Shown here in pieces: positions 22,294 through 43,273 of a stretch of DNA of 64,000 bases (positions within the stretch are counted from its first letter, which is position 1; each line of letters opens with the position of its first letter). Location: positions 1-64,000 of the forward strand of contig PXRN01000006.1 of the NCBI GenBank assembly GCA_003021045.1, written 5' to 3'. The stretch comes from Halobacteriales archaeon QS_4_69_34. GTDB lineage: Archaea; Halobacteriota; Halobacteria; Halobacteriales; Halococcaceae. The translations under genes and the position numbers were made by a program. The notes below the pieces were generated by a model. That model searched no databases. It was not told the DNA's origin and saw only the letters and a program-made list of their open reading frames with translations.

Positions 22294-22507
22294 CCGCCGG
22301 CGATTCGACCGTCACCGGAGTCGACGGCAGTCGTCGACTTCGCGGCAGTCGACGACCGCCGAGATCCGGCCCCCGCCCGGACCGGGGACCCGCACGACGC
22401 CCGCCATCGACCGAGAGCTCACGCCGGGACCGCGACCGGCCGCGCCGCCCTCTTTTCCCTCTAGTACCGTCGCGCGATCCCCACAAGTGTTATTAGCGAG
22501 CAGTCGA

Positions 22508-22528
22508 GTTACTCAGAAAGCGAGTAAC
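22508..22528. promoter_or_regulatory. inverted repeat directly before the SDR operon start
   Basis: Arms GTTACTC and GAGTAAC are exact reverse complements around a 7-base spacer and end one base before ATG 22530. A TATA-like GTGTTATTAG lies at 22487-22496, placing the predicted transcription start within the dyad. The position suits a repressor operator or a hairpin at the transcript's 5' end. Confidence 0.6.
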
Positions 22529-22529
22529 C

Positions 22530-23714
22530 ATGTCCATCGTCGTCACCGGGGCCGACGGCTACGTCGGGTGGCCGACGGCCCTCCGGATCGCGGACCGCGC
22601 CGACCAGCGGGTGCTCTGTGTCGACAACCTCGCCCGGCGCGGGTGGGTCGAGGAGGTCGGCGGCGTCAGCGCGACGCCGGTCACGAGCGTCGACGAGCGC
22701 ATCGGGGCCGCCGAGGAGGCGCTGGGGCTCTCGAACCTCTCTTTCGTCGAGGGCGACCTCACCGAGCGCTCGTTCGTCGACGAGCTCTTGACCGTCCACG
22801 AGCCCGAAGCCATCGTCCACGCCGCGGCCCAGCCCAGCGCACCCTACTCACAGATCAACGGCGAGCGCGCCAACTACACCCAGCACAACAACATGCAGGC
22901 CACCCGGAACCTCGCGTTCAGCCTGCACGAACACGATCTCGACGAGACCCACCTGATCGAGACCACCACCACGGGGGTCTACGGTGCACCCGAGTTTCCG
23001 ATCCCGGAGGGCGGCGCGATCATGGAGAGCGACGGCGAACGCGACGAGGTGCCCTTCCCCGCGATGGCGGGGAGCTGGTATCACCTCACCAAGAGCCACG
23101 ACGCCGCGAACCTGCGGCTCGCCCACGCCCAGTTCGGGCTGCCGATCAGCGACGTGCGGACGGCCATCGTCTACGGTGCGGGCACCGCGGAGACCCGGGC
23201 CGACGAGCGCCTCGCCACGCGACTCGACTTCGATTACTACTTCGGCGTCGTCGCCAACCGCTTCTGTGCACAGGCCGTCGCGGGCTACCCGATGACCGTC
23301 TACGGACGGGGCGAGCAGCGCAAACCCTTCGTCGCCCTGGAGGACGCCGTCGAGGGGCTCGCTCGACTGGCGCTCGGCGATCCCGACGAGCGTCCCGGGG
23401 AGCACACCGTCTACAATCAGGTCACGCGGGCGATCAGCATCGTCGAGATCGCGGAGACGATCGCCGAGGTCGCGGGCGAGTACGACCTCGACGTCGCGGT
23501 CGAGCATTTCGAGAACCCCCGGGAAGAAGACGAGACCCACGAGATGGAGATCGCAAACGAGAAGTACGATTCGCTGATCGGCGGGCAGTCGGTCGAGTTC
23601 GCCGCCGGCGTGCGCGACACCCTCGACGCGATGACCGCCCGGAGCGAAGTCGTCACAGCCCACGAGGACCGCTTCCTGCCGGGCGTGCTCGAAGACGGGG
23701 GGCAGGCGGAGTAG
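22530..23714 (+). CDS. NAD-dependent epimerase family, UDP-sulfoquinovose synthase-like (SQD1/Agl3 type)
   Basis: The 394-residue extended SDR has GxxGxxG at 7-13 and motifs shared specifically with SQD1/Agl3: GWP after the dinucleotide motif, VDNLARR at 31-37, QPSAPYS at 101-107, a TTTTGVYG catalytic stretch at 145-152, and SWYHLTKSHDAANLR with Y184 and K188. SQD1 enzymes make UDP-sulfoquinovose from UDP-glucose and sulfite. The haloarchaeal protein could do this or a related C4/C6 sugar-nucleotide reaction for surface glycans. It heads a tight three-gene SDR operon (next start two bases after its stop codon) under a promoter with a dyad. Confidence 0.85.
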   Translation: MSIVVTGADGYVGWPTALRIADRADQRVLCVDNLARRGWVEEVGGVSATPVTSVDERIGAAEEALGLSNLSFVEGDLTERSFVDELLTVHEPEAIVHAAAQPSAPYSQINGERANYTQHNNMQATRNLAFSLHEHDLDETHLIETTTTGVYGAPEFPIPEGGAIMESDGERDEVPFPAMAGSWYHLTKSHDAANLRLAHAQFGLPISDVRTAIVYGAGTAETRADERLATRLDFDYYFGVVANRFCAQAVAGYPMTVYGRGEQRKPFVALEDAVEGLARLALGDPDERPGEHTVYNQVTRAISIVEIAETIAEVAGEYDLDVAVEHFENPREEDETHEMEIANEKYDSLIGGQSVEFAAGVRDTLDAMTARSEVVTAHEDRFLPGVLEDGGQAE

Positions 23715-23715
23715 C

Positions 23716-24684
23716 GTGGACGTCCTCGTGACCGGCGGCTGCGGGTACATCGGGAGCGTACTCGTTCCCCTCTTGCAGACCGACGAGCGCGTCGACGGGG
23801 TGTCGGTGCTCGACGACTGCTCGACCGGGTCGCCCCGGCGGCTGATGGACGCGCGCGTCGGCGAGCTCGACTTTCACGACGGGGACGTCCGCGAGTACGG
23901 CGACGTCGAGCGCGCGCTCGGTGGCGCTGACGCGGTGATCCACCTCGCGGCGATCACTGGCGCGGACAGCACCCACGACCGGCGCGAGGCAACCTACCGG
24001 ACCAACCGCGGGGGCACCGAGAACGTCCTGACCGCGGCGAACGAGCACGGCGTCGAGCGAGTGGTACTCGCCTCCTCGTGCAACGTCTACGGGCGCGCGG
24101 GCGGCACCGATGTCGACGAGAGCGTCGCGCCCGATCCGCTGAATCCCTACGCCGAGACGAAGCTCGAAGCCGAGAAACTGCTCGCCGAGCACGCCGAGCG
24201 GGGGAGCGTGAACGGGACGGCGCTCCGGCTGAGTACCGTCTACGGCGACGCCCCGGGGATCAGGTTCAACCTCGTGGTCAACGCCTTCGTCTTCCGGGCG
24301 CTCACCGGCCGGCCCCTGACGGTGTACGGCGACGGCTCGAACTGGCGGCCGTTCATCCACGCCCGCGACGCCGCACGGGCCTTCCGGGAGGCGGCGCTCG
24401 ACCCCGCGTCGTGGCCGGCACCGGTCTACAACGTGGGTGCGAACCGCGGGAACTACCGCATCCGGGAGATCGCCGGGATCGTCAGCGAGGCGATCGGCCC
24501 CGTAGCGGTCACGTATCTGGAGGACGAACGGCCGGGGCCGTCCTACCACGTGAACTTCGACCGGCTCGCGGGGACGGGCTTCGAGCTCGACTACCGGCTC
24601 CGCGAGGGCGTTCGCGAGCTGGCGGGACGATTCGAGGGCAGTGACGGCGGCGCGACCGAACACGGCATGAGGGTTCAGGGATGA
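23716..24684 (+). CDS. NAD-dependent sugar epimerase/dehydratase (extended SDR)
   Basis: The 322-residue protein has a GGCGYIG nucleotide-binding motif (7-13), serines S120/S121 in VVLASSCNVYG and catalytic Y145/K149 in NPYAETKLEAE. It carries the GDGSNWRPFIHARDAARAF substrate-binding region of sugar-nucleotide epimerases such as UDP-glucose 4-epimerase relatives. It starts at GTG 23716 just after the SQD1-like gene and overlaps the next gene by four bases. It likely modifies a nucleotide sugar in the cytoplasm; the substrate cannot be told. Confidence 0.9.
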   Translation: MDVLVTGGCGYIGSVLVPLLQTDERVDGVSVLDDCSTGSPRRLMDARVGELDFHDGDVREYGDVERALGGADAVIHLAAITGADSTHDRREATYRTNRGGTENVLTAANEHGVERVVLASSCNVYGRAGGTDVDESVAPDPLNPYAETKLEAEKLLAEHAERGSVNGTALRLSTVYGDAPGIRFNLVVNAFVFRALTGRPLTVYGDGSNWRPFIHARDAARAFREAALDPASWPAPVYNVGANRGNYRIREIAGIVSEAIGPVAVTYLEDERPGPSYHVNFDRLAGTGFELDYRLREGVRELAGRFEGSDGGATEHGMRVQG

Positions 24685-25685
24685 GCGAGGGTTCAGAGAC
24701 GAGCGAGGACACGGACGATGGGACCACGACCGTCGCCGTCACGGGCGCGGCGGGCTACATCGGCAGCTGCGTCGTCGGCCAACTCCGCGAGCATCATCCC
24801 GACTGGACGGTGCGCGCGTTCGACAACTTCTATCTGGGGGAGGTGCGCGAGATCGGGGACGTGACCGTCGCACACGTCGACGTCCGCGACCGCGATCGGT
24901 TGAAGGACGCCCTCGCCGGCGCGGACGTCGTGATGCACTTGGCCGCGATTTCGGGGGTCGACGACTGCGAGACCCATCCCGATCTGGCCTACGAGGTAAA
25001 CGTCACGGGGACGAACAACGTGGCGTGGTTCTGCCGGAAGACGGGCACTGGGCTCGTCTTCCCGTTCAGCATGGGCGTGCTCGGCGACCCACGGGAGTTT
25101 CCGATCACGGTCGACCATCCACGGGACCCGCTGAACTGGTACGGTCGGACGAAGCTCCTCGGCGAGCGCGCGATCGAGGCGTTCGCCGAGGGGGCCTTTC
25201 CGGCCCACCTCTTCCTCAAGTCGAACCTCTACGGCGAGCACGCCGTCGACGGGCGGACGGTCTCGAAAGGGACGGTGACGAACTTCTTCGTCGAGCGCGC
25301 GCTCGCCGGCGAGCCACTCACCGTCTACGAGCCGGGCACCCAGTCGCGCAACTACGTCCACGTCGTCGACGTCGCGCGCGCGTATCTCCACAGCGCCGAG
25401 CGCATGGTCGACCAGCTCGCCGCGGACGAAACCGGCACACGGAAGTACGAGCTCGCCAGCGGGGAGGACCCGGGCGTGATGACCGTCGCCGAGCTCGTCA
25501 GGGAGATCGCCGCCGAGGAGGCCGGCATCGACGCCGACGTCGAGCTGGTCGAGAACCCGCGGGCGGCCGAGACGCTGGTCTCGGAGTTCGGCGTCGACGT
25601 CTCGCGCACCCGCGAGGAACTCGGCTGGGAGCCCGAACACACCGTCGAGGACACGGTCAGGGAGCTCGTCAGCGAGGCGACCTGA
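24681..25685 (+). CDS. NAD-dependent sugar epimerase/dehydratase (extended SDR)
   Basis: The 334-residue protein has an acidic start (1-16), a TGAAGYIG motif (21-28) and catalytic Y154/K158 in NWYGRTKLLGE. The usual serine position reads FPFSMGVLGDP. The QSRNYVHVVDVARAYL segment is the substrate-binding part. ATG 24681 overlaps the stop of the preceding SDR gene (ATGA), so all three SDRs are made together. No glycosyltransferase lies in the operon. Confidence 0.9.
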   Translation: MSEGSETSEDTDDGTTTVAVTGAAGYIGSCVVGQLREHHPDWTVRAFDNFYLGEVREIGDVTVAHVDVRDRDRLKDALAGADVVMHLAAISGVDDCETHPDLAYEVNVTGTNNVAWFCRKTGTGLVFPFSMGVLGDPREFPITVDHPRDPLNWYGRTKLLGERAIEAFAEGAFPAHLFLKSNLYGEHAVDGRTVSKGTVTNFFVERALAGEPLTVYEPGTQSRNYVHVVDVARAYLHSAERMVDQLAADETGTRKYELASGEDPGVMTVAELVREIAAEEAGIDADVELVENPRAAETLVSEFGVDVSRTREELGWEPEHTVEDTVRELVSEAT

Positions 25686-25741: not shown

Positions 25742-26170
25742 ATGGACGAGCAGCCGGGACTGAGCGACCAGTACCGCCGGTCGAGCCCGTGGCCGCTGCT
25801 CGTCGCGCTCGGGCTCGTCCTCTCGGAGATCGGGGTGGTCCTCGGCTTCCTCGCGATCACGGTGGTGGGCCTGCTGCTGTTCGTCGGGTCGATCGCCGGC
25901 ATCACCCGGGAATCGGGCTACGTCGAGCGGCCGTGGAACGTGCTCGCGGGTCTGGGCGGCGCGCTCGCGCTGGCCGGCGGCGCGATCGGAGCGTGGGCGC
26001 TCGATCCCCTCAGCACGGGCGCGCTCCTCGACGCCGTCGGCGCGCCCGGCACCCACGGTGTCGTCGCTCGCGGAGTGGCGATCGCCGTCGCCGGGCTCCT
26101 CGCGCTGTTCGCCGGCGCGTCCGGCCGGTACGCCGAACGGGGGTCGGTCCGAGCCGCCCGGGACGGGTAG
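25742..26170 (+). CDS. cox-cluster membrane protein (DUF7541-like)
   Basis: The 142-residue protein has an N-terminal soluble stretch (DEQPGLSDQYRRSSPWPL) and four hydrophobic helices (about 18-34, 37-54, 66-84, 104-122). The opening and the SEIGVVLGFLAI helix match haloarchaeal proteins annotated as DUF7541 or simply cox cluster protein. It has no catalytic residues that stand out; an assembly or stabilising role for the aa3 oxidase is inferred from the constant gene neighbourhood. Its promoter shares a motif with coxA and coxB. Confidence 0.85.
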   Translation: MDEQPGLSDQYRRSSPWPLLVALGLVLSEIGVVLGFLAITVVGLLLFVGSIAGITRESGYVERPWNVLAGLGGALALAGGAIGAWALDPLSTGALLDAVGAPGTHGVVARGVAIAVAGLLALFAGASGRYAERGSVRAARDG

Positions 26171-26233: not shown

Positions 26234-26668
26234 ATGGCACGCACGGTCTTCGACCGCGAGACGCTGCTCGACCTCACGGTCAACATCATCCCGCTCGGTA
26301 TCCTCCTCTTTTTCGTCGTCCTCTACAGCGTCTACACGCCGTTCGGGTGGGATCCGGTCATCACGACGATCATGTACGGTCTCCACGTCGTCCCGTTCGT
26401 CGGGCTGGCGATCCTCACCTACTTCGCCGGCCGGGCGATCTCGAGGGCCGAAGGCGAGGCCGAGCGGGCCGCGACGATCGACGACGACTTCGAGCGCAGG
26501 GAATCGAACGGCGAGGACCGCAAAGCTTCCGCCGACGTCACCGAGGGTGTCAGCGGTGACACCGCCGAAATCGGGCCCGAAAACGACGATGACGCCGAAG
26601 CCGGCACGAACGACGAACCGGCCACCGGCGGGTCGAGCGGGGAGACCGACACAGCCGGCGACGAGTGA
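26234..26668 (+). CDS. cox-cluster membrane protein (DUF6684-like)
   Basis: The 144-residue protein has two transmembrane helices (about 14-33 and 43-66) joined by a short loop with YTPFGWDP, then a long acidic Glu/Asp/Gly/Thr tail (75-144). The N-terminal MARTVFDRETLLDLTVNIIP is characteristic of the haloarchaeal DUF6684 family found with cox genes. A TATA-like GTCTTTATCGGG lies about 27 bases before ATG 26234, so it has its own leaderless-type promoter. Inferred accessory role with coxA, 275 bases downstream. Confidence 0.85.
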   Translation: MARTVFDRETLLDLTVNIIPLGILLFFVVLYSVYTPFGWDPVITTIMYGLHVVPFVGLAILTYFAGRAISRAEGEAERAATIDDDFERRESNGEDRKASADVTEGVSGDTAEIGPENDDDAEAGTNDEPATGGSSGETDTAGDE

Positions 26669-26942: not shown

Positions 26943-28895
26943 ATGGGTTGGACACTCGCCCCGTTAGCGGCGTCGGAGCCCTCCGGCGCGGTCCTCCAGA
27001 CGGGGGTGCTCGGCACCGAGCTGGTGGTCACGGTTCTCATGGGGCTGTTCCTCGCGGGCGTGGCAGCGTGGCTCGCTCGCATCGAGAACTGGCGCTCGTA
27101 CACGCCGCTGGCGGGCGGCGGCGTCGCCGAGGAATCGGGCTACGCCCACGAGGAAAAACCCGGCGGGCTCCTCCGGTGGCTGACGACCGTCGACCACAAG
27201 GACATCGGGCTGCTCTATGGCACCTACGGCGTGATCGCGTTCACCGTGGGCGGGCTGATGGTCATGCTGATGCGCGCCGAGCTGACCGCGCCCGCACAGG
27301 ACTTCCTCCAGGCGTCGACCTACAACGCCTTCCTGACCTCTCACGGCATCACGATGCTGTTTTTGTTCGGGACACCCATCATCGCGGCGTTCGCCAACTA
27401 CTTCATCCCGCTGTTGATCGGTGCGGACGACATGGCGTTTCCGCGGATCAACGCCATCGCTTTCTGGCTGCTCCCGCCCGGAGCGTTGCTCATCTGGGCC
27501 GGCTTTCTCGTCCCCAGCCTCCAGGGCGCACAGACCGCGTGGACGATGTATCCGCCGCTGTCGGCCGGCATCGGCGCTGGCACGCAGTCGGGCGCGGGCG
27601 TCGACCTCATGCTGCTCGGCCTCCACCTGACCGGCGTCTCGGCGACGATGGGGGCGATCAACTTCATCGCCACCATCTTCACCGAGCGGGGTCCGGACGT
27701 CAACTGGGCGAACCTCGATATCTTCAGCTGGACGATCCTCACCCAGTCGGCGCTCATCCTCTTTGCCTTCCCGCTGCTGGGCAGCGCGCTGATCATGCTG
27801 CTGATGGACCGCACCCTCGGGACGACCTTCTTCGCCGTGCAGGGCGGTGACCCGATCCTCTGGCAGCACCTGTTCTGGTTTTTCGGCCACCCCGAGGTGT
27901 ACATCCTCTTTCTCCCGCCGGCGGGGCTCATCAGCCTCATCCTGCCGAAGTTCGCCGGCCGGAAGCTGTTCGGGTTCAAGTTCGTCGTCTACTCGACGCT
28001 GGCGATCGGGGTGCTTTCGTTCGGCGTCTGGGCACATCACATGTTCGCCTCGGGCATCGACCCGCGGCTTCGCGCGAGCTTCATGGCCGTCTCGCTCGCT
28101 ATCGCCATCCCGAGCGCGGTCAAAGTGTTCAACTGGATCACCACGATGTGGAACGGCGACGTCCGGCTCACCGCGCCGATGCTCTTTATGGTGGGGACGG
28201 TCGGCAACTTCATCATCGGCGGCGTCACCGGCGTGTTCCTCGCGGCCATCCCCGTCGACCTCGTGCTCCACGACACCTACTACGTGGTCGGCCACTTCCA
28301 TTACATCGTGATGGGCGTGCTCGGGTTCACGGCCTTCGGCGCGCTCTACTACTGGTATCCGATCTTCACCGGTCGAATGTACCAACAGCGGCTGGCGAAG
28401 TGGCACTTCTGGCTGACGATGGTCGGCACGAACGTCACCTTCTTCGCTATGCTGTTTCTGGGGTATCTCGGGATGCCACGGCGCTACGCGACCTACGACT
28501 TCGGCATCGGGCCGGTGAACCCCGTCACGGCCTTCCACCAGGCGGCGACGCTCGGCGCGTTCGTCATCCTGCTCGGGCAGGTGATCTGGCTGTGGAACTT
28601 CGTCCAGTCGTGGTACGAGGGTCCCGTCGTCAACGACGGCGATCCGTGGAACCTCAAGGAGATCGGCCAGTTCAGCCGCGAGTGGCAGTGGAACGAGCGT
28701 CGCATCGAGACGGCCATCGCCGACGGCGGTCGGGAATCGTCCGATTCCCGAGCACATCAGGCTCCGGAGGAACCCGAGGACGGCAACGAGACCGAGGCGA
28801 GGACCGACGGCGGCCGGGACACGGACACCGACGTCGAGGCCACGACCGACGGGACGGACGCCGCCGAGAGGGGCGACCGGTCGGACGAGTCCTGA
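26943..28895 (+). CDS. coxA: cytochrome c oxidase subunit I (A1-type heme-copper oxidase)
   Basis: The 650-residue catalytic subunit reduces oxygen to water and pumps protons. Ligands are visible: H134 and H453 for the low-spin heme, H316, H365 and H366 for CuB, H451 for the high-spin heme, and Y320 for the His-Tyr crosslink (WFFGHPEVY). E318 in the same motif and D163/N170 (GADDMAFPRIN) indicate a D-pathway of the A1 type. After the last helix comes an acidic tail (about 590-650), unlike the core in composition, containing a perfect palindrome in its coding sequence. Promoter and start fit a leaderless transcript. coxB and coxC lie some 16 kb away. Confidence 0.97.
   Translation: MGWTLAPLAASEPSGAVLQTGVLGTELVVTVLMGLFLAGVAAWLARIENWRSYTPLAGGGVAEESGYAHEEKPGGLLRWLTTVDHKDIGLLYGTYGVIAFTVGGLMVMLMRAELTAPAQDFLQASTYNAFLTSHGITMLFLFGTPIIAAFANYFIPLLIGADDMAFPRINAIAFWLLPPGALLIWAGFLVPSLQGAQTAWTMYPPLSAGIGAGTQSGAGVDLMLLGLHLTGVSATMGAINFIATIFTERGPDVNWANLDIFSWTILTQSALILFAFPLLGSALIMLLMDRTLGTTFFAVQGGDPILWQHLFWFFGHPEVYILFLPPAGLISLILPKFAGRKLFGFKFVVYSTLAIGVLSFGVWAHHMFASGIDPRLRASFMAVSLAIAIPSAVKVFNWITTMWNGDVRLTAPMLFMVGTVGNFIIGGVTGVFLAAIPVDLVLHDTYYVVGHFHYIVMGVLGFTAFGALYYWYPIFTGRMYQQRLAKWHFWLTMVGTNVTFFAMLFLGYLGMPRRYATYDFGIGPVNPVTAFHQAATLGAFVILLGQVIWLWNFVQSWYEGPVVNDGDPWNLKEIGQFSREWQWNERRIETAIADGGRESSDSRAHQAPEEPEDGNETEARTDGGRDTDTDVEATTDGTDAAERGDRSDES
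28730..28751. repeat. perfect palindrome inside the coxA tail
   Basis: Arms TCGGGAATCG and CGATTCCCGA flank a 2-base loop (TC). It encodes part of the hydrophilic C-terminal tail (about residues 597-603, GRESSDS). The layout matches the palindromes at 17-38 and 6447-6468. Confidence 0.8.
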
Positions 28896-40252: not shown

Positions 40253-42073
40253 CTACTCGACAGTGACGCTCTTGGCGAGATTTCTGGGCTTGTCGATCGA
40301 GCGCCCGAGGTCGGCGGCGGTGTGGTAGGCGAACAGCTGGAGCTGTACGCTTGCGAGCACTGCGGCCGTGCGCGGGTGGGTCTCGGGCACCGAGAGGACG
40401 TGGTCGGCGTAGCGCTCGACGTCGGAACGCCCGTCGGTGACGGCGATCACCGGCGCGCCCCGGGCCTCGACCTCCTTGACGTTGCCGACCGTCTTGCGCG
40501 CCAGCTCGCCGTCGCCGGTGGCGACCGCGATCACCGGCGTCTCCTGGGTGACGAGCGCGAGCGGGCCGTGCTTGAGCTCGCCGGCGGCGAACCCCTCGGC
40601 GTGGCGGTAGGTGATCTCCTTGAGCTTCAGCGCCCCCTCCAGGGCGACGGAAAAGTTGAGCCCCCGCCCGATGAAGAAGTACGCCCCCGCGTCGGCGTAG
40701 GCGTCGGCGACCGTCTCGGCCGTCGACTCGTCGAGTACTGCCTGTACGGTGCTGGGGAGGTCCCGGAGCGCGGCGATCACCTCACGGTTGCCGTCCTCGA
40801 CCGTCGCGAGCGTGAGGAGGTTGATCGCCGCGAGCTGGCTGGCGAAGGTCTTCGAGGCGGCGACGCCGATCTCGGGGCCCGCGCGGATGTAGAGGACGTG
40901 CTCGCACTCCCGGGCGACGGTCGAGCCCACCACGTTCGTGAGCGCGAGCGTCTCCGCGCCCCGCCCGCGGGCCTCCCGGAGCGCGCTCAGGGTGTCGGCG
41001 GTCTCGCCGCTCTGAGTCACCCCGATCACCAGGTCGTCGCCGATCGGCGGCACGCTCGTGACGTACTCGCTGGCGAGAAAGGCCTGTGCGGGGACGCCCG
41101 CCGCCCGGAACAGCGCCGCGCCGTACAGCGCCGCGTGGTAGGAGGTGCCGGCGGCGACGAACTGCACCGCCGTCGGGTCCAGCTCCTCGATCTCGGGGAG
41201 CTCGATGCGGCCGCCGAGCTCGTCGACCCGCCCCCGGAGACACTGCCGGAGCGAGCGTGGCTGCTCGTGGATCTCCTTGAGCATGAAGTGCTCGAACCCG
41301 CTCTTGCCGGTGTCCTCGGCGTCCCACGCGACAGTGTCGATCTCCTTTGTTATTTCCTCGCCGTCGGCGTCGCTCACCGTCCAGCCCCCGCCCCCGGCGT
41401 CGAGCCGGACGAACTCGCCGTCGTCGGGATACACTACCCGGTCGGTGAACTCGCGGAACGCGGGGATGTCGCTGGCGATGTAGGTGGCGCTCTCGCCGAG
41501 CCCGAGCACGAGCGGCGAGTCGTTGCGGGCCGCGAAGACCGCCTCCGTCCCGGCGAAGACGGCCGCGATGGTGTAGCTGCCCTCGATCCGGGCGATCGCC
41601 GCCCGGAACGCCCCCTCGGGGCTCGCGCCCTCGTCGAGCGCCGCCTCGATCAGGTGGGTGACCACCTCGGAATCGGTCTCGCTCGTGAACTCGTGGCCGG
41701 CGGCCTCGAGGTCGTCCCTCAATCCCTGAAAGTTCTCGATGATGCCGTTGTGAACGATCGCCACCCGGCTCCCGCAGTCGGTGTGGGGATGGGCGTTCGC
41801 GTCGGTCGGCGGGCCGTGCGTGCTCCAGCGGGTGTGACCGATGCCGACCGACCCCTCTAGATCACCATCGGCGGTCCCGGTGTGGTCGACGACCGACCGG
41901 AGTGCGTCGAGTTCGCCCGCGCGCTTTGCGACAGCGAGCCGGCCGCCGACGTCGCCGTCGGCCAGCGCCACGCCCGCCGAGTCGTAGCCGCGGTACTCGA
42001 GTTTGCCCAGCCCGTGCATCAACACGTCGAGCGTCTCGTCGGGCCGACCGACGCAGCCGATGATGCCACACAT
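40253..42073 (-). CDS. glmS: glutamine--fructose-6-phosphate aminotransferase (isomerising)
   Basis: The 606-residue enzyme makes glucosamine 6-phosphate from fructose 6-phosphate and glutamine. It has the N-terminal nucleophile C2 (MCGIIGCVG), a glutaminase domain with VGIGHTRWSTHG and NGIIENF, and two SIS domains with GTSYHAALYGA, VIGVTQSGETADTL and the C-terminal ending IDKPRNLAKSVTVE. Length is standard. Its ATG directly follows the stop codon of the glmU-like gene with no gap, so the two are one operon for UDP-GlcNAc precursor supply. Confidence 0.97.
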   Translation of the reverse strand: MCGIIGCVGRPDETLDVLMHGLGKLEYRGYDSAGVALADGDVGGRLAVAKRAGELDALRSVVDHTGTADGDLEGSVGIGHTRWSTHGPPTDANAHPHTDCGSRVAIVHNGIIENFQGLRDDLEAAGHEFTSETDSEVVTHLIEAALDEGASPEGAFRAAIARIEGSYTIAAVFAGTEAVFAARNDSPLVLGLGESATYIASDIPAFREFTDRVVYPDDGEFVRLDAGGGGWTVSDADGEEITKEIDTVAWDAEDTGKSGFEHFMLKEIHEQPRSLRQCLRGRVDELGGRIELPEIEELDPTAVQFVAAGTSYHAALYGAALFRAAGVPAQAFLASEYVTSVPPIGDDLVIGVTQSGETADTLSALREARGRGAETLALTNVVGSTVARECEHVLYIRAGPEIGVAASKTFASQLAAINLLTLATVEDGNREVIAALRDLPSTVQAVLDESTAETVADAYADAGAYFFIGRGLNFSVALEGALKLKEITYRHAEGFAAGELKHGPLALVTQETPVIAVATGDGELARKTVGNVKEVEARGAPVIAVTDGRSDVERYADHVLSVPETHPRTAAVLASVQLQLFAYHTAADLGRSIDKPRNLAKSVTVE

Positions 42074-43273
42074 CTACCCGAGCACCTCCGCGCCCGTGGC
42101 GATCCAGCCGCTCGGCCGCGCTCCCGTGTGGATGTGTGCGCCCGGGCCGACGAGCGTCCCCGGCGTGAAGGTTACGTCCCCGCCCGCCTCGGTCCGGTCG
42201 GCGATCACGGCTCCCAGTCGTTGGTCTTCGAACACCCGCGATCCCACGCGCACGCTCGCCGGTCCGCCCGGGACCGTCGCGTCGGCCCCGAGGGTGACGT
42301 CCTCGCCGGTCACGCAGTCGAGCAGGGTGCTGCCGGGGCCGACGCGGGTGTCGGCGTCCAGTACTGTGCGCTCGACGGTGGCGTTCGCGCCCACGGTGGC
42401 GTTCCGGCCGAGCGCGACGTCCGGGCCGACAGCGGCCCCTGGGCCGACCTCACAGTCGGGGCCGACGACCACCGGCCGTTGGAGGGTGGCGTCGTCGTGG
42501 ACGAGCGCCGAGTCGTCGACCCACACGCCTTCTTCTTCGGGGGGTTCGTCGACCCGGCCGCGCGCGAGCAGTTCGCGCATCACGGTGAGCAGGTCCCACG
42601 GATAGGTGGCGTCGACCCACAGCCCCTCGGTGTGAACCCCGCGAACGCTCTCGCCACCGTCGATCAGCCGGGCGAGCGTGTCCGTCAGCGGGAGCTCGCC
42701 GTCGGTGCGGGGGGTGTCCTCGATGGCGTCGAAGATCGCAGGACTGAAGGCGTAGACGCCGGCGTTGATCAGGCGGTACTCGTCGGTGTCGGGCTGTTCG
42801 ACCAGCCGGTCGATCCGGCCCGCATCGAGGACGACCGCGCCGTACTGGCGCACGTCGGGCCGTTCGATCACCGCGAGCGTGGCCGGGGCGTCGGGGTGGC
42901 GCTCGGCGGCCGCCATCACGTCGGCGACCATCCCCGGCTCGATCACCCGATCGCCGTTGACGGCGAGGAAGGGCTCGGCGACAGCCGCGCGCGCTTCGAG
43001 CAGCGCGTGGCCGCTGCCGAGCTGTTTGTCCTGATGGAGGTACTCGATCGAGACGTCCCGATAGGTCGGCCCGAAGTGCTCCTGTACTCTGTCACGCTTG
43101 TAGCCGACCACGACGCCGATCGTCTCGATGCCGGCGTCGATCAGCGCGTCGAAGACGTACTCCAAGACCGGCCGATTCGCGGCGGGAAGCATAGGCTTGG
43201 GACGGTTCCGCGTCAGCGGGCGCAGCCGGGTACCCTCCCCGGCGGCCAGCACGACGGCGGTGCGGACGCTCAT
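42074..43273 (-). CDS. GlmU-like sugar-1-phosphate nucleotidyltransferase/acetyltransferase
   Basis: The 399-residue protein has an N-terminal nucleotidyltransferase (AVVLAAGEGTRLRPLTRNRP, then LAVNGDRVIEP) and a C-terminal left-handed beta-helix with many hexapeptide repeats (VVVGPDCEVGPGAAVGPDVA and similar). It fits archaeal bifunctional GlcN-1-P acetyltransferase/GlcNAc-1-P uridyltransferase, which with GlmS supplies UDP-GlcNAc for glycans; a glucose-1-phosphate thymidylyltransferase-like role is the alternative. It starts at ATG 43273 and is first gene of the operon with glmS. Confidence 0.9.
   Translation of the reverse strand: MSVRTAVVLAAGEGTRLRPLTRNRPKPMLPAANRPVLEYVFDALIDAGIETIGVVVGYKRDRVQEHFGPTYRDVSIEYLHQDKQLGSGHALLEARAAVAEPFLAVNGDRVIEPGMVADVMAAAERHPDAPATLAVIERPDVRQYGAVVLDAGRIDRLVEQPDTDEYRLINAGVYAFSPAIFDAIEDTPRTDGELPLTDTLARLIDGGESVRGVHTEGLWVDATYPWDLLTVMRELLARGRVDEPPEEEGVWVDDSALVHDDATLQRPVVVGPDCEVGPGAAVGPDVALGRNATVGANATVERTVLDADTRVGPGSTLLDCVTGEDVTLGADATVPGGPASVRVGSRVFEDQRLGAVIADRTEAGGDVTFTPGTLVGPGAHIHTGARPSGWIATGAEVLG

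Follow-up and report, generated by a model that had tools for sequence, protein, structure and literature searches.

An SQD1-like short-chain dehydrogenase/reductase operon of haloarchaea with a probable link to UDP-N-acetylglucosamine and a predicted TrmB-type operator

The window analyzed in this study is a stretch of 64,000 nucleotides from Halobacteriales archaeon QS_4_69_34 (GenBank assembly GCA_003021045.1, contig PXRN01000006.1, positions 1 to 64,000). It contains an operon of three genes coding for short-chain dehydrogenases/reductases (SDR1, SDR2, and SDR3), which is preceded by a palindrome (Table 1). An earlier note, made from the sequence alone, had described an SQD1-like enzyme followed by two tightly coupled SDRs and a perfect inverted repeat across the predicted transcript start. 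The tight coupling was borne out by the short gap, the overlap and the common strand of the genes, and the repeat is indeed perfect. Its position at the start of transcription is a prediction: a TATA-like element lies upstream, which would place the start inside the palindrome. The operon probably is an unusual sugar-nucleotide module, as considered possible there. New in this analysis are the separate clade of SDR1 with its apparent link to amino-sugar genes, as well as a TrmB-type dyad which is conserved and defines a predicted shared regulon.

Table 1. Features of the SDR operon and of the glmS and glmU-type genes in the window.
Feature	Position	Strand	Remarks
TATA-like TTATTA, operon promoter	22490..22495	+	sequence reading
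Perfect palindrome GTTACTC-AGAAAGC-GAGTAAC, predicted operator of a TrmB-family protein	22508..22528	.	1 base between palindrome and ATG of SDR1
SDR1, SQD1-like "cluster IV" enzyme, 394 amino acids	22530..23714	+	ATG start; predicted to modify UDP-GlcNAc, possibly by adding sulfite
SDR2, GalE-type	23716..24684	+	GTG start; 1 nucleotide past SDR1 stop
SDR3, GalE-type	24681..25685	+	ATG start; overlap of 4 nucleotides with SDR2
glmS, glutamine--fructose-6-phosphate transaminase	40253..42073	-	TIGR01135 690.5 bits (cut-off 418); ~15 kb from operon
Archaeal glmU-type sugar-1-phosphate nucleotidylyltransferase/acetyltransferase, paired with glmS	42074..43273	-	TIGR03992 279.5 bits, slightly below cut-off 292.1

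SDR1 was found in 158 of the 391 sampled genomes of Halobacteria (E ≤ 1e-30) and SDR3 in 153 (E ≤ 1e-90), all of which belong to the 158. In 54 of 64 named haloarchaeal loci, SDR1 has both SDR2 and SDR3 downstream of it on its own strand; in the other ten, one or both are absent from the locus, moved, or outside the stretch reached. In Haloglomus irregulare they are located approximately 4–6 kb upstream of SDR1. On plasmids of Haladaptatus (L054/L121, L105) SDR1 lies beside a glycosyltransferase gene with neither of the two nearby, and in L054 also with wecB, encoding UDP-N-acetylglucosamine (UDP-GlcNAc) 2-epimerase. Because of this arrangement, SDR1 may be active in further amino-sugar pathways.

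Neither SDR2 (114.4 bits) nor SDR3 (106.1 bits) reaches the cut-off of the curated GalE model TIGR01179 (262.3 bits). The top sequence match of SDR2 in the PDB is the UDP-GlcNAc C4-epimerase of Pseudomonas protegens (6wjb, E 1.8e-32), a distant relative, and SDR2 has conserved motifs of its own (ASSCN.YGR and PGPSYHV). The predicted fold of SDR3 matches GalE-type enzymes, which allows no finer assignment of its function.

This type of operon is already known from Haloquadratum: an operon of a SqdB homologue and two GalE homologues, the same gene set as in the window, was described in the genome paper of Haloquadratum walsbyi, where sulfolipid synthesis was suggested (2006, PMC1544339). The accessible sections of that paper do not mention an operator, a regulon or a connection to amino sugars. 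In the related Haloquadratum sp. J07HQX50 the order SDR1-SDR2-SDR3 was found as well. Furthermore, haloarchaeal sequences were placed in a distant cluster IV of the UDP-sulfoquinovose synthases, for which, in the available text, the question of a different mechanism was left open (Zolghadr et al., 2015, PMC4388408). By position and sequence, SDR1 is a member of cluster IV, which is here widened to bacteria and connected to UDP-GlcNAc genes. The open literature, with subscription papers outside the coverage, holds no assignment of cluster IV to amino-sugar metabolism, no account of the regulon and no named gene for 6-sulfo-quinovosamine (6-sulfo-QuiN); relevant material on sulfoquinovosamine or sulfo-QuiN was found there for Haloarcula only.

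Relation of SDR1 to the SQD1/SqdB/Agl3 group

The best match of SDR1 in sequence is SQD1 of Arabidopsis (PDB 1qrr, E 3e-73), which is also the top fold match of its predicted model (TM 0.77), the model being poor around the active site. Common to both are the blocks QxSAPYS, QxNN, and YHxxK. The catalytic residues Thr145, Tyr182, and Lys186 are kept in all 50 SDR1 sequences compared, and so is His95, one of the important positions of Agl3. Fold, catalytic set and several blocks are therefore shared with the SQD1/SqdB/Agl3 group, but the active-site block reads TTTTG[VI]YG instead of GTMGEYG.

In Agl3, alanine mutants at R101, M145, and E147 are inactive or retain 12% of the activity, with M145A being inactive, according to the accessible part of the study (PMC4388408). 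These residues correspond to Pro, Thr, and Val in SDR1 of the window, and to Pro, Thr, and Val/Ile/Leu in all 120 scored rows of cluster IV, a set which comprises overlapping genomes and three bacterial rows (the bacterial row L127 was not scorable). In 18 other SqdB-type sequences, the Met position (M145 of Agl3, M146 of SQD1) is occupied by Met in 15, Ile in two and Leu in one. At the positions of R101 and E148 of SQD1, however, Pro is found in seven and Val in five of these 18 rows. Only the Met position and its neighbors (L143T and G144T) thus separate cluster IV from the SqdB type, and R101 and E148 were dropped as proof against a sulfoquinovose synthase.

Two further tests were discarded. 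The curated model NF041015 for UDP-sulfoquinovose synthase gave 341 bits for SDR1 with a cut-off of 575, but Synechococcus elongatus falls short of this cut-off too; for the same reason, the result that none of the 391 Halobacteria genomes exceeds it or matches at E 1e-115 was not used as evidence, and a scan with SQD1 as query, backed by positive controls (see below), took its place. The gate of the GalE Tyr299 type (Y334 in SQD1) was dropped as a substrate test, since three SqdB-type rows (L057, L058, and L061) also lack the tyrosine.

In a tree of 46 rows, from which Agl3 of S. acidocaldarius was left out, a branch with 100/100 support splits 27 cluster-IV rows from 19 rows of the SQD1/SqdB type. 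Members from Omnitrophota, Bacillota, and Pelagibacteraceae are located on the cluster-IV side. Due to this separate clade and the differing active-site block, SDR1 is, as judged from its sequence, related to the SQD1/SqdB group without being a plain member of it. The "SQD1/Agl3-specific blocks" of the earlier note hence stand insofar as the enzyme is SQD1-like and blocks are shared, but they do not extend to the active site or the clade. As for the key residues of SQD1 and Agl3, Thr, Tyr, Lys, and His95 are kept, whereas Met145 is replaced by Thr; Arg101 and Glu147 are changed, but they vary elsewhere too.

With SQD1 as query, two haloarchaeal genomes gave E values of 9e-73 and 2e-70. At E 1e-82 none of the 391 Halobacteria genomes matched, whereas all five control records with other SqdB-type genes did, so that haloarchaea seem to have cluster IV only. 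The control genome of Haloferax volcanii showed no SDR1-type match at E 1e-60.

Gene context and probable substrate

Among the 64 named haloarchaeal loci, 22 have a glmS gene in the flank covered, which extends up to 10 kb, and in 21 of them it is on the strand of the operon; a chance neighborhood was estimated, not computed, at approximately 1% (20 kb of ~3 Mb with one or two copies), and the related species are not independent. The nearest glmS genes lie 178–210 nucleotides upstream of SDR1. In one locus (L066) both glmU and glmS exceed their NCBIfam cut-offs.

In bacteria, an amino-sugar context was found. A PseC-like aminotransferase gene lies within ~3.1 kb of all four bacterial cluster-IV genes examined, the match being under the curated cut-off. 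Also under curated cut-offs, a NeuB-like synthase was found next to two of the four, and a UDP-GlcNAc-3-dehydrogenase-like gene together with a NeuD-like gene next to one. The labels PseG-like and CBS-nucleotidyltransferase, given by eye to further bacterial neighbors, had no NCBIfam match at E 1e-30 and were not used. Pathways of the PseC and NeuB type begin at UDP-GlcNAc and require a UDP-GlcNAc 4,6-dehydratase.

Because of the glmS/glmU linkage, the amino-sugar gene context and the UDP-GlcNAc C4-epimerase as top PDB match of SDR2, the substrate of SDR1 is likely to be of the UDP-GlcNAc type, and the label "SQD1" is probably wrong as to the substrate. The reaction with UDP-glucose and sulfite, which the earlier note had suggested for assay, is doubtful in view of the separate clade and this context. 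An ordinary UDP-sulfoquinovose synthase using these two substrates, which would represent a divergent haloarchaeal branch for a sulfolipid or an S-layer glycan, would agree with the top sequence and fold match, with the retained Thr, Tyr, and Lys, with the variability, in other SqdB-type sequences, of two out of the three Agl3 positions that differ in SDR1 and with the annotation given in the accessible text on H. walsbyi (PMC1544339). It is nevertheless unlikely, as the clade of SDR1 is separate, the Met essential in Agl3 is Thr in every scored row of cluster IV, and the genes are linked to glmU and glmS and, in bacteria, to amino-sugar genes.

The promoter dyad and its predicted regulator

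The palindrome upstream of SDR1 is the sole site in the window with up to two mismatches to TTACTC-N7-GAGTAA. In the whole genome three sites with at most one mismatch were found, compared to none for the reversed control. One is the SDR1 site and another lies in the promoter of a gene on a different contig, which encodes a TrmB-like protein (PF01978) and carries a perfect dyad. This protein is 57–59% identical to two TrmB-like proteins whose genes adjoin the operon in relatives. The third site (TTACTC-N7-GAGTAA, contig C15, 20670–20688) is located in a repetitive stretch with "HLSLANN"-like units in its frames, which might be part of a plasmid or of a mobile region, and no tie to the SDR module was found for it.

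The dyad is present with up to two mismatches in 14 bases in 54 of 64 SDR1 promoters (the window and 63 named loci, with L112 skipped), 43 of them perfect, and always 1–4 nucleotides before the ATG. Allowing one mismatch, a spacer of seven nucleotides was found in 50 of the 64 promoters and spacers of 3–6 or 8–11 in none. Shuffled 60-mers contained the dyad in only 5 of 12,800 cases. The AT content of the 54 aligned promoters is highest between positions -39 and -31 relative to the ATG. At least five of the ten promoters without the dyad (L087, L104, L105, L106, and L121) belong to plasmid copies or have DUF2304-type neighbors.

For TrmB of Halobacterium salinarum (VNG1451C) the motif TACT-N7-8-GAGTA has been described in the text available, where a site downstream of the promoter was read as repression. 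The SDR operon shares with it the regulator family PF01978 and the motif, as TACT-N8-GAGTA at position 22,510 lies inside the dyad. The dyad differs from the VNG1451C motif, as far as the latter is described there, by its longer arms (GTTACTC/GAGTAAC) and by the restriction of its sites to SDR1, glmU and the linked TrmB-like gene. Of 39 genomes searched, 11 have SDR1; perfect dyads were found in 7 of these and in none of the other 28 (Fisher p 2e-5, with no correction for relatedness). Six of the 12 perfect sites are located before SDR1, five before a TrmB-like gene and one between glmU and a TrmB-like gene; the reversed pattern gave no site in the same genomes.

The dyad is thus very likely the operator of the linked TrmB-family protein, as predicted from these patterns. 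A plain site of a global glucose-responsive TrmB of the VNG1451C type, with no dedicated regulator, would explain the motif inside the dyad, but is improbable given the restriction of perfect dyads to genomes with SDR1 and the location of all 12 perfect sites at genes of this set; moreover, such an operon is absent from the text passages and the opening rows of the peak table that were available from the TrmB ChIP-seq paper on Haloarcula hispanica.

Proposed pathway and possible connection to surface glycans

The S-layer of Haloarcula hispanica carries the N-glycan 6-sulfo-QuiN-(1,6)-[Glc-(1,2)-]Gal, and deletion mutants of this species have been published, as reported in the accessible part of a later paper (PMC9943897, citing Lu 2015). 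In the genus Haloarcula, SDR1 was identified in 31 of 32 genomes and in all 28 of high quality, H. hispanica not being examined by name. SDR3 of Haloarcula argentinensis (L088) is followed by an STT3/AglB-like gene (over the Pfam gathering threshold, under the NCBIfam cut-off), and the linked TrmB-like gene of this species adjoins aglJ (TIGR04182, over cut-off). Several other genomes, that of the window among them, have aglJ homologues close to the operon or to its TrmB-like gene. The absence of a sugar transferase, stated in the earlier note, is therefore true of the operon itself, but aglJ, STT3-like or glycosyltransferase genes are near in some relatives.

To our knowledge, the known route for sulfonating a hexose at C6 is SQD1-type chemistry. 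The simplest joint reading is for this reason a conversion of UDP-GlcNAc and sulfite to UDP-N-acetyl-6-sulfoquinovosamine (UDP-6-sulfo-QuiNAc), which is our best guess for the product of SDR1, at about even odds. A sulfonated product as such is about equally likely or not. The sulfonated or modified sugar nucleotides expected in the earlier note hence remain plausible as to the sulfonate, but as the amino sugar 6-sulfo-QuiN, in keeping with the Haloarcula glycan and the UDP-GlcNAc context, and not as sulfoquinovose.

Alternatively, SDR1 might use UDP-GlcNAc without sulfite, as a 4,6-dehydratase or epimerase which together with SDR2 and SDR3 forms a non-sulfonated amino sugar, e.g., a 6-deoxy-HexNAc. 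The PseC- and NeuB-like genes of the bacterial clusters, with their pathway need for a UDP-GlcNAc 4,6-dehydratase, point in this direction, as do the loss of the essential Met145 and of the dehydration residue Glu147 of Agl3 and the resemblance of the three SDRs to dehydratase/epimerase/reductase sets. We regard this as rather unlikely, since SQD1-type blocks are retained across the whole clade, the scans of 391 haloarchaeal genomes revealed no further gene of the SQD1 type, and the one relevant characterized glycan of a carrier genus, as described in the source available, has an amino sugar sulfonated at C6.

For the sulfonating route, we infer from the comparisons the substrate, the addition of sulfite, the roles of SDR2 and SDR3, the identity of the binding protein and the sign of the regulation. 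GlmS and GlmU would provide UDP-GlcNAc to the enzymes of the operon. SDR1, as an SQD1-like NAD enzyme, would oxidize C4, remove the hydroxyl group of C6, add sulfite at C6 and reduce C4 again, and the resulting UDP-6-sulfo-QuiNAc would be the likely donor for the 6-sulfo-QuiN residue in the N-glycan of Haloarcula. For SDR2 and SDR3, C4-epimerase or ketoreductase steps on the same or neighboring amino-sugar nucleotides would be the simplest roles. The TrmB-family protein, whose own gene lies behind an identical palindrome, would bind the dyad across the predicted start of the transcript and, in the simplest case, act as a repressor, and synthesis would in this way track the sugar supply.

That the operon as a whole serves the surface glycans of haloarchaea by modifying UDP-GlcNAc, with SDR1 forming UDP-6-sulfo-QuiNAc under TrmB-family control, is in our view an even chance. 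Tentatively, and with the balance slightly against it, cluster-IV SDR1 may represent a new activity, a UDP-GlcNAc:sulfite "UDP-N-acetyl-6-sulfoquinovosamine synthase", which would be the missing step for 6-sulfo-quinovosamine of haloarchaeal S-layers and would work within a dedicated module of three SDRs controlled by a TrmB-type regulator of its own; the bacterial relatives may then make sulfonated relatives of sialic-type sugars.

Besides the gap at H. hispanica, several observations weigh against this interpretation. Within the flank of up to 10 kb, 42 of the 64 loci have no glmS. The gate test failed to discriminate the substrate, and the replacement of the Agl3-essential Met145 by Thr possibly means that neither dehydration nor sulfonation takes place. 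No gene producing sulfite was found linked to the operon, no search having been aimed at such genes. Of the 11 genomes carrying the operon, 4 have no perfect dyad. Among 24 loci with a neighboring TrmB-like gene, 15 have the dyad (up to one mismatch) within 200 nucleotides before this gene, and among 22 loci with glmU only 6 have it before glmU, one site being common to both genes. In the scan of the 64-kb window, neither glmU nor glmS has a dyad in front. Haloarcula marismortui is reported to carry a Haloferax-like pentasaccharide. Sulfoquinovose has been reported, in the part of the literature available, on the S-layer of Haloferax volcanii, a species with no SDR1-type gene at E 1e-60; according to the accessible text of a review, it also has no Agl3 homologue.

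Downstream of the operon, two small genes with DUF7541 and DUF6684 were found (25742–26170 and 26234–26668), followed at 26943 by a gene that resembles, by eye, a heme-copper oxidase subunit. Near the operon of Haloarcula pellucida (L065, 6185–8920), a gene of the UDP-glucose dehydrogenase type is split by an intein, which according to Pfam carries a LAGLIDADG domain.

A gene present in 158 of 391 haloarchaeal genomes is thus easily annotated as UDP-sulfoquinovose synthase, while it probably acts on another substrate. If the proposed pathway is true, the operon would be a candidate source of 6-sulfo-quinovosamine on the S-layers of Haloarcula and would give a genetic handle on the C6-sulfonation of amino sugars. 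The supply of surface-glycan precursors would then be tied to a TrmB-type switch.

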